A DNA stretch of 56,789 nucleotides from Halanaerobium saccharolyticum (GTDB taxonomy: Bacteria > Bacillota > Halanaerobiia > Halanaerobiales > Halanaerobiaceae): assembly GCF_003259895.1 (NCBI RefSeq), contig NZ_QLME01000021.1, forward strand, positions 1 to 56,789, read 5' to 3'. The notes beneath the pieces were generated by a model. It did no database searches. It saw only the letters and a program-made list of their open reading frames with translations, and was not told the DNA's origin. Below are positions 44,606 to 46,046 of the stretch, one piece after another. Position 1 is the stretch's first letter; each line of letters begins with the position of its first letter. The translations under genes were made by a program, and so were the position numbers.

Positions 44606-44655
44606 AATTGTGCTCAACTTAATTTATTATACCTTTTTCTTGTAACATTTGTCAA
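44606..44655 (-). promoter_or_regulatory. ohrR promoter and operator
   Basis: Minus strand: -35 TTGACA (44655-44650), 18-bp spacer, -10 TATAAT (44631-44626). Immediately downstream, 44606-44622 (AATTGTGCTCAACTTAA on the plus strand) matches the operator at 44076-44095. Confidence 0.75.
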
Positions 44656-44661
44656 TAGCTT

Positions 44662-45399
44662 TTAGTTAATTTTCGAAAATATTTCATCCACCTGAATCTT
44701 CAATCCCTCAAAATGTTCAGATTTCAAAATTTGATCCGAGAGCAGATCATTTACTGCTTCTATATCTCTATCCTCTGTAAAAATATACTGAGTTATTTTC
44801 ATGTTTTCGGGATCAACAATCCAATATTCTCTGACTCCACTTTTTGAATATAAATTCAATTTTAAAATAAGATCCCTTTTCTTAGTCGAAGGAGAAAGAA
44901 CTTCTACTAAAAGTTCGGGTACTCCCTGGTACTTATCATCCACAACATTTTCCGGATCACAGATCACCATAATATCAGGCTGAACAACATTTGGGTCCTC
45001 TTTAAATTTAGGTGCATATCCCTGTAGTTTAATGTCAAGGGGAGATGTTAAAGAACTGCATTTACTATCTTTAAAATAATTATAGAAAATACCAGCAATT
45101 TTATTTACAAGCATCTGATGTCTAAAACTGGGGGAAGCCATTAAAAATACCTCACCATCTATCAGTTCATAACGCTGATCAGAACCTTCTATAAGTTCCC
45201 GATATTCCTGATAGCTTACCCTCTTATAATTTTTCGAATTATAATCTTTAGCCTCTTCTTTAATATAATCTCTATAATCAAAGTAATTACTAAGCTTCGC
45301 CACAGCCTTACCATTTTTGAGCACAATAACATCCTCTTTTTCCACCAGTGCTAAATACTTACCAAATGAGTTCTGTAAATCAGTACTGTTAACCCTCAT
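44662..45399 (-). CDS. Phd-like antitoxin domain fused to Uma2 (DUF820) nuclease
   Basis: 245 residues. Residues 1-40 (MRVNSTDLQNSFGKYL..., ending VIVLKNGKAVAKLS) look like the DNA-binding N-terminus of a Phd/YefM antitoxin. From about residue 60 a Uma2-type PD-(D/E)XK nuclease follows: YELIDGEVFLMASPS, QPDIMVI, LLVEVLSPSTKKRD and the GVREYWIVDPE end. Uma2 proteins are common in bacteria but of unclear role. GGAGGGAGG precedes the ATG. Monocistronic, with paired TAGCTA sites around its -10, which suggests that the N-terminal domain represses its own gene. Confidence 0.8.
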   Translation of the reverse strand: MRVNSTDLQNSFGKYLALVEKEDVIVLKNGKAVAKLSNYFDYRDYIKEEAKDYNSKNYKRVSYQEYRELIEGSDQRYELIDGEVFLMASPSFRHQMLVNKIAGIFYNYFKDSKCSSLTSPLDIKLQGYAPKFKEDPNVVQPDIMVICDPENVVDDKYQGVPELLVEVLSPSTKKRDLILKLNLYSKSGVREYWIVDPENMKITQYIFTEDRDIEAVNDLLSDQILKSEHFEGLKIQVDEIFSKIN

Positions 45400-45415
45400 C
45401 TCATATCCTCCCTCC

Positions 45416-45446
45416 TTTAGCTATATTATATCATACATTAGCTAAA
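45416..45446 (-). promoter_or_regulatory. Autoregulatory-type promoter of the Phd-Uma2 gene
   Basis: Extended -10 TG-A-TATAAT (45433-45425, minus strand). It is bracketed by two palindromic TAGCTA hexamers (45418-45423, 45439-45444), 21 bp apart centre to centre (two helical turns), that also form an inverted repeat TTTAGCTA / TAGCTAAA. Confidence 0.65.
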
Positions 45447-45533
45447 ATTATAATAAAATTGACTAATATAATTAAAATTAGGCATTTAATTATGGAAAAT
45501 TAGAGATTCCGGGAACCTGTCAGTATATTGAAT

Positions 45534-46046
45534 TTAATTTTTTTTCTCAGAAAAACTTTCTACAACTTTATGATAATCGCCTTTCGCTTTTAAAAGATGA
45601 GTTAAAATTTCTCTAACTGCACCTTCTCCACCCCTGCATTCTGATATTAGATCAGAAACTTCTTTGACCTCTGCTGCTGCGTCACTGGGACAGCCTGCAA
45701 ATCTGGCTTCCTTCATTACAGCTAAATCATTTAAATCATCGCCAAGATAGGCTAGATTTCCATAAGTAATTTCTTTTTCCTCCATCAATTTTTCTAAAGC
45801 CTGCTTTTTATCTCTAACTCCCTGATAATATTCTTTTATTCCCAGTTCAGCCGCTCTGCGGGCCACAACTTCAGATTTTCTGCCGGTCATAATGATTATA
45901 TCATAACCCAATTTTATTGCAGCAACCACCATCAGGCCATCTTTAACATTGAAAGATTTAAATTCATTTTTGCCATTATCTAAATATACCCTGCCATCCG
46001 TCAGTGTCCCATCAACATCCAAAAAAATAGTATTAATATTCTTCAC
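45534..46046 (-). CDS. HAD-family phosphatase, KdsC-like (Kdo-8-phosphate phosphatase type)
   Basis: 170 residues of the C0-type HAD phosphatases: DVDGTLTDGRVYLDNG (nucleophile and acid Asp), MTGRKSEVVARRAAELGI, YQGVRDKKQAL and GDDLNDLAVM. These match KdsC, which makes Kdo for lipopolysaccharide, though related enzymes act on other sugar phosphates. GTG at 46046 is the start, with GGAGGGA 5-7 bases upstream. No other Kdo genes are adjacent. If truly KdsC, it implies an outer membrane. Confidence 0.8.
   Translation of the reverse strand: MKNINTIFLDVDGTLTDGRVYLDNGKNEFKSFNVKDGLMVVAAIKLGYDIIIMTGRKSEVVARRAAELGIKEYYQGVRDKKQALEKLMEEKEITYGNLAYLGDDLNDLAVMKEARFAGCPSDAAAEVKEVSDLISECRGGEGAVREILTHLLKAKGDYHKVVESFSEKKN

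Follow-up and report, generated by a model that had tools for sequence, protein, structure and literature searches.

The gene at 44662-45399 of the window (the whole 56,789-nucleotide stretch of Halanaerobium saccharolyticum DNA that was analyzed) encodes a Phd-type DNA-binding domain fused to a predicted Uma2 nuclease domain, and is in our judgment best explained, with good though not full confidence, as a solo, self-repressing nuclease with a Phd head. Self-repression is well supported by the sequence comparisons below. In the proposed mechanism, the N-terminal Phd domain, of antitoxin origin, would dimerize and bind TAGCTA palindromes overlapping its own promoter; accumulation of the protein would then shut off transcription of its own gene and so hold the C-terminal Uma2 PD-EXX-K nuclease at low levels. 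Direct and cooperative binding, an active nuclease and its target are all things that we infer, and the physiological role could lie in defence, mobile-element control or DNA repair.

A Phd-Type DNA-Binding Domain Fused to a Uma2 Nuclease Domain

The features of the gene and its protein are as follows (the end at 45446 in the original prediction took in the promoter, and the gene boundary itself is at 45399):

44662-45399, minus strand: Phd-Uma2 fusion gene, 245 aa (open reading frame; Pfam domains; same-locus H. saccharolyticum ortholog 89% identical)
45280-45399, minus strand: Phd/YefM-type DNA-binding domain, residues 1-40, with recognition helix T6-D7-L8-Q9-N10 (PF02604; model; structural matches; dN/dS)
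45229-45279, minus strand: linker, residues 41-57, replacing the toxin-neutralizing tail of an antitoxin (low-confidence model; end of the Pfam Phd match; tail kept in stand-alone antitoxins)
44689-45210, minus strand: predicted Uma2 PD-(D/E)XK nuclease domain, residues 64-237 (PF05685; fold matches)
44974-44976, minus strand: D142, predicted catalytic residue of the PD motif (unchanged across 45 fusions and viral Uma2 relatives)
44902-44904, minus strand: E166, predicted catalytic (invariant in the same set)
44860-44862, minus strand: K180, predicted relocated catalytic lysine of the PD-EXX-K variant (invariant in the same set; compare the relocated Lys of TT1808, PMC551604)

The joining of a Phd segment to a Uma2 domain in one protein, as originally predicted, was borne out by both Pfam domains and folds. 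The Uma2 family (PF05685) matched residues 64-237 at 4.2e-30 and 104.9 bits, against a curated cut-off of 27. The match of PF02604 (PhdYeFM_antitox) to residues 3-49 of the protein (1e-6, 28.8 bits) fell below the cut-off of 29.8, whereas the same stretch reached 30.3 bits, above it, in a genome scan; 42 of 45 aligned fusions matched the Phd family, the best at 6.7e-11. The three predicted catalytic residues of the Uma2 part are intact and fit the PD-EXX-K layout (PMC551604).

Between the two Halanaerobium orthologs, dN/dS was 0.025 for the Phd part and 0.36 for the Uma2 part. The Phd part carries a single amino-acid change, and the substitutions are concentrated in one helix region of the Uma2 part (residues 98-115, window 45050-45110). 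E48 (45256-45258), which lies in the otherwise variable linker, was invariant in 45 fusions; in several plain and HTH_17 versions of the protein, a similar ExxxxY stretch can be made out by eye ahead of the Uma2 domain.

A first structure model had few alignment rows over the Phd part, which was poorly modeled, and viral Phd rows were added for a second. In the second model, residues 1-40 form a strand-helix-helix-strand-strand arrangement (pLDDT about 71-84), the Uma2 part is mostly above 80, and the linker (residues 40-57) is below 50 and probably flexible. The Uma2 part matched 6okh (Z 24.8), 3ot2 (Z 21.4), 9y1l (Z 20.4) and 1wdj (Z 19.9). The N-terminus, for which the original prediction expected a Phd/YefM fold over residues 1-45, matched the Phd chains 2odk (Z 6.8), 3hs2, 4zm0 and 4zm2, VapB46 (6jqy, 1.8 A over 41 residues) and YefM (6l8e), in agreement with that expectation. 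The Z values of these matches are modest, as is to be expected of so small a domain. Against the PDB, a sequence profile built on the Phd part gave weak matches only.

Paired TAGCTA Palindromes Around an Extended -10

The features of the promoter region are:

45407-45416, minus strand: ribosome-binding site, GGAGGGAGG (sequence)
45418-45423, no strand: putative operator TAGCTA, just downstream of the -10 (exact; the +8 slot, here +7, of the subclade register)
45425-45433, minus strand: extended -10, TGATATAAT (sequence; no promoter with a good -35 came out of the scan at this place)
45439-45444, no strand: putative operator TAGCTA, just upstream of the extended -10 (exact; the -14 slot of the subclade register)
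45460-45465, no strand: third operator copy, degenerate, reading TAGTCA on the minus strand (sequence; the slot holds an exact TAGCTA in the H. saccharolyticum ortholog)

Two TAGCTA palindromes 21 bp apart around an extended -10 had been noticed from the sequence alone, and they are there exactly, separated by N15 (21 bp start to start), with the -10 TATAAT (45425-45430 on the plus strand) between them and a TG one base upstream of it. With up to one mismatch allowed, the pair matched once in the window against 0.25 expected, and TAGCTA-N14-16-TAGCTA occurred once in the whole 3.3-Mb genome. The third copy, which was absent from the original prediction, lies 21 bp further upstream; in the H. 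saccharolyticum ortholog it is an exact TAGCTA, and the most downstream copy is TAGTTA. A chance origin of the pair was ruled out by its conservation, which we name as the decisive evidence. A wider TAGCTA regulon was also considered and rejected: this genome has the one pair, and pairs away from fusion promoters in relatives lie mostly inside open reading frames, with a few intergenic exceptions (e.g., L167, L169).

Conservation of the Fusion and Its Operator

Uma2 is present in 12 of the 38 genomes of the order, and a protein search of 398 genomes of the phylum found 187 with a relative and at least 56 with a full-length fusion. About 100 Phd-Uma2 fusions were fetched from related genomes, and TAGCTA pairs recur with them, as the original prediction had proposed to look for. 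Fusions of clade A (helix STD/STE-x-QN) had at least one TAGCTA in 69 of 74 promoters (120 bp) and at least two in 60 of 74, a set of 74 that includes two misclassed clade B members (K-type: L110, L118), both among the five without a site. The TAGCTA clade averaged 1.96 sites per 120-bp promoter versus 0.13 in shuffles. In clade B (helix ITATE-x-K), none of 25 promoters had TAGCTA, and CGYAC or TCGTACGA motifs were found instead. The motif TCGTACGA occurred in 9 of 25 K-type fusion promoters, against 0.0008 expected per promoter (L103-L125, L017, L022, L027).

The register of the sites is fixed within subclades. With the -10 as reference, the subclade to which this gene belongs has site starts at about -36, -14 and +8; a second subclade has them at +11 and +28, and a third mostly at +11, +20 and +29. 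Cooperative binding by dimers is plausible given the fixed 21-23 bp register in this subclade. Since spacing varies among subclades (9, 17-18 and 20-23 bp), one fixed dimer-dimer contact would not be a general route to cooperativity.

The Operator Follows the Phd Recognition Helix

We divided Phd domains into Q-type and K-type by residue 9 of the recognition helix. TAGCTA accompanied 65 of 68 Q-type fusions versus 3 of 29 K-type fusions, and paired TAGCTA accompanied 8 of 9 Q-type stand-alone Phd antitoxins versus 0 of 21 K-type ones; the Fisher values for these contrasts (4e-17 and 1.5e-6) ignore relatedness and thereby overstate the number of independent events. In the nuclease-domain tree the Phd fusions all grouped together and two operator changes suffice, and what gives the split its weight is therefore how long it has been conserved and that fusions and stand-alone antitoxins agree, rather than a large number of independent switches. 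Three K-type fusions with TAGCTA and one Q-type stand-alone antitoxin without it indicate that one residue alone does not set the helix code.

The Q-type stand-alone antitoxins with the pair (viral L233, L238, L240-L244; genome L245) have the helix ATEM/LQN and two TAGCTA sites placed around the -10 at a distance of exactly 25 bp, and the viral ones are followed by an overlapping gene for a PIN-like toxin. These Phd-PIN modules overturned an idea that TAGCTA was private to Uma2 fusions. That idea had come from a first set of 32 stand-alone antitoxins, in which one TAGCTA site was found in 2 and two sites in 0. A search of viral contigs with the strict promoter pattern gave no match.

As the operator follows the helix in fusions and stand-alone antitoxins alike, TAGCTA is very probably read by the fused Phd domain itself. 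The comparisons point to a Phd recognition code in which a Q-type helix goes with TAGCTA and a K-type helix mostly with CGYAC, true toxin-antitoxin modules included. On the simplest reading, the fusion acquired its DNA-binding domain from an antitoxin, operator code included. A role of TAGCTA as an operator of the gene's own promoter, as first proposed, is supported by the conservation of the sites and by an identity that tracks the Phd helix.

Different DNA-Binding Heads on Predicted Uma2 Nucleases

Uma2 domains are also fused to a different head, HTH_17; among 71 matched genomes of the phylum, most matches cover the HTH part (Pfam HTH_17). Promoters of HTH_17-Uma2 genes contained GTTGAT 44 times versus 2.4 expected (L008, L013, L016, L020, L024, L025, L173-L202), with TTGAY direct repeats at 10-bp spacing, and TAGCTA was found in 0 of 36. 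As these fusions independently carry GTTGAT repeats of their own, putative self-operators recur across different DNA-binding heads. At least three kinds of putative self-operator thus appear on Uma2 nucleases in this collection, each matching its own head, which suggests that keeping the nuclease scarce matters, whatever the target. A speculative extension, which we hold as a minority view, is that the Uma2 nucleases of these bacteria are self-policing defence enzymes with interchangeable heads (Q-type Phd with TAGCTA, K-type Phd with CGYAC, HTH_17 with GTTGAT), each head having been imported from another system with its operator code, and that repression would be released when the nuclease engages invading DNA.

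Locus Context and a Possible Role in Defence

The neighbours of the gene are a KdsC-like phosphatase gene and, downstream, a MarR-type regulator gene with its own consensus promoter; the fusion gene is therefore probably monocistronic. That promoter is a perfect TTGACA-18-TATAAT (44626-44655) located right after the stop codon of the fusion.

A role against phages or mobile elements, with self-repression lifted during invasion, is possible, although we rate it clearly below even chances; it would add a function to the self-repressing nuclease rather than exclude it. Foreign DNA might, for example, engage the nuclease and titrate the protein off its operator. Consistent with such a role, the Uma2 part (residues 57-242) matched the PADLOC candidate PDC-S03 (PDLC04832, 1.3e-58), PDC standing for phage defence candidate (PMC11514479), and it is through TAGCTA repeats that RptR represses a Type I RM/DarTG2 island (PMC12255303). 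Paralogue clusters occur, and the distribution is patchy: of the 12 genus members sampled 2 have the gene, and synteny is conserved around empty sites. The gene and its flank (44667-45550) are missing at the gpx-marR-kdsC-eamA site in four other genus members (L145-L148). Against it, PDC-S03 is a candidate label for which the literature searched gave no demonstration of protection, no release mechanism was seen, and the direct neighbours are mostly unrelated genes, a few of the 137 scanned (one gene on each side) being defence-like and most not.

At one of the empty sites, L147 (G016), about 30 bp of the 3' end of the fusion may be kept, which suggests a loss there. In H. saccharolyticum (L144) the variable segment is bordered upstream by a small palindromic repeat like GACAGGTACCAGGTACCTGTC, with a REP-like look, and the copy in the window (about 45505-45522) is degraded.

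Alternative Explanations

The suggestion that this is a one-gene toxin/antitoxin, in which a Uma2 toxin would be neutralized in cis by the Phd part, fared poorly and is in our view improbable. Uma2 was suggested as a likely solo toxin by Makarova et al. (PMC2701414), and there are antitoxins that resemble the Phd domain and have its helix and operator. However, the toxin-wrapping part of Phd/VapB is missing: the Pfam match of the fusion reaches no further than position 52 of the 74 in the profile and leaves out the neutralizing tail that stand-alone antitoxins keep, and the linker in its place is predicted with low confidence and probably flexible. Plain Uma2 genes without any Phd are common, and a search of 72,556 plasmid and 50,697 phage records gave no full fusion. 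Nor was a recurring partner family found next to the fusions, except Uma2 paralogues (6 of 73); the downstream neighbour was on the same strand in 49 cases and on the opposite strand in 46. This genome has one Uma2 gene and three other Phd/YefM genes, at least two of which lie just upstream of RelE/ParE-like open reading frames as read from their translations; no TAGCTA was found upstream of the three. Plain Uma2 genes without a DNA-binding head were seen on viral contigs (L155-L166), and a Uma2 match was seen on Dorea phage DO134P1.

About as doubtful is the reading that the Uma2 domain is a non-nuclease sensor or oligomerization domain of a repressor acting only on itself. The nuclease activity of the fusions is a prediction, and in the dN/dS comparison above the Uma2 part shows the faster evolution of the two parts; D142, E166 and K180 are nevertheless invariant not only in the 45 fusions but also in distant relatives.

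That the TAGCTA sites are bound by some other repressor acting in trans, for example a homologue of RptR, is very unlikely. RptR does bind TAGCTA, and its operator is similar to the 9-bp repeats seen in one subclade (PMC12255303), but the conservation of RptR is described across Gammaproteobacteria (PMC12255303), and a separate repressor would not explain why site identity tracks the fused Phd helix in fusions and stand-alone antitoxins. Least likely of all is that TAGCTA is the cleavage site of a restriction-like nuclease which the Phd domain could tether to it, given that Uma2 relatives without Phd exist and that genome counts support TAGCTA neither as a restriction target nor as an avoided site (111 copies of TTAGCTAA in the host genome, and no more in genus members without the gene, 94 in G012 and 81 in G016).

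Comparison With Known Systems

The open-access literature searched yielded no paper on a Phd-Uma2 fusion or its operator, and no binding, repression or nuclease assay of any member. Parts and principles are known, but neither the fusion nor its operator nor the helix-operator code appears to have been described there. Uma2 (COG4636/DUF820) proteins with solved structures (TT1808 1wdj, Ava_3926 3ot2, 6okh, 9y1l) share with the fusion the fold and the PD-EXX-K layout set out by Feder and Bujnicki (PMC551604), but the solved chains have no DNA-binding head, and no self-operator is described for them in the literature examined. Uma2 accounts for more than 2% of all protein-coding genes in one cyanobacterium (PMC551604). 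For this large predicted nuclease family without an established role, a conserved self-operator provides a handle on the timing of expression and a means of derepression.

Phd/YefM antitoxins (Phd-Doc, YefM-YoeB, Axe-Txe and VapB-type Phd by PIN toxins) have the same DNA-binding fold and repress themselves through paired palindromes over the promoter, as proposed for the fusion. The operators of YefM/Axe are TGTACA pairs 12 bp apart, centre to centre (PMC7730913); the Q-type stand-alone antitoxins beside PIN-like toxins have the TAGCTA pair in common with the fusion. The fusion differs from Phd/YefM antitoxins in general in having neither a neutralizing tail nor a toxin gene, in its fused PD-EXX-K nuclease, and in its TAGCTA sites with 21-bp spacing. 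The Controller (C) proteins of Type II restriction-modification systems likewise limit a nuclease through their own promoter (PMC12255303), but they are encoded by a separate gene, act as activator and repressor, and come with a methylase, none of which the fusion has.

A parallel in operator is RptR, an all-alpha repressor described in 2025 from enteropathogenic E. coli, where it binds repeated TAGCTA palindromes and so keeps a Type I RM/DarTG2 island in check (PMC12255303). Both systems have repeated TAGCTA palindromes in the repressor's own promoter and control nuclease genes, and RptR needs at least two sites. RptR is a 79-aa all-alpha protein from its own gene, whereas here a Phd fold is fused to the nuclease, and the likeness is one of convergent operators, not homology. 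RptR thereby shows at the bench, and independently of the fusion, that paired TAGCTA can serve nuclease genes as an operator (PMC12255303), and, taken together with the fusion, it indicates that unrelated repressors have converged on TAGCTA to restrain nuclease genes.
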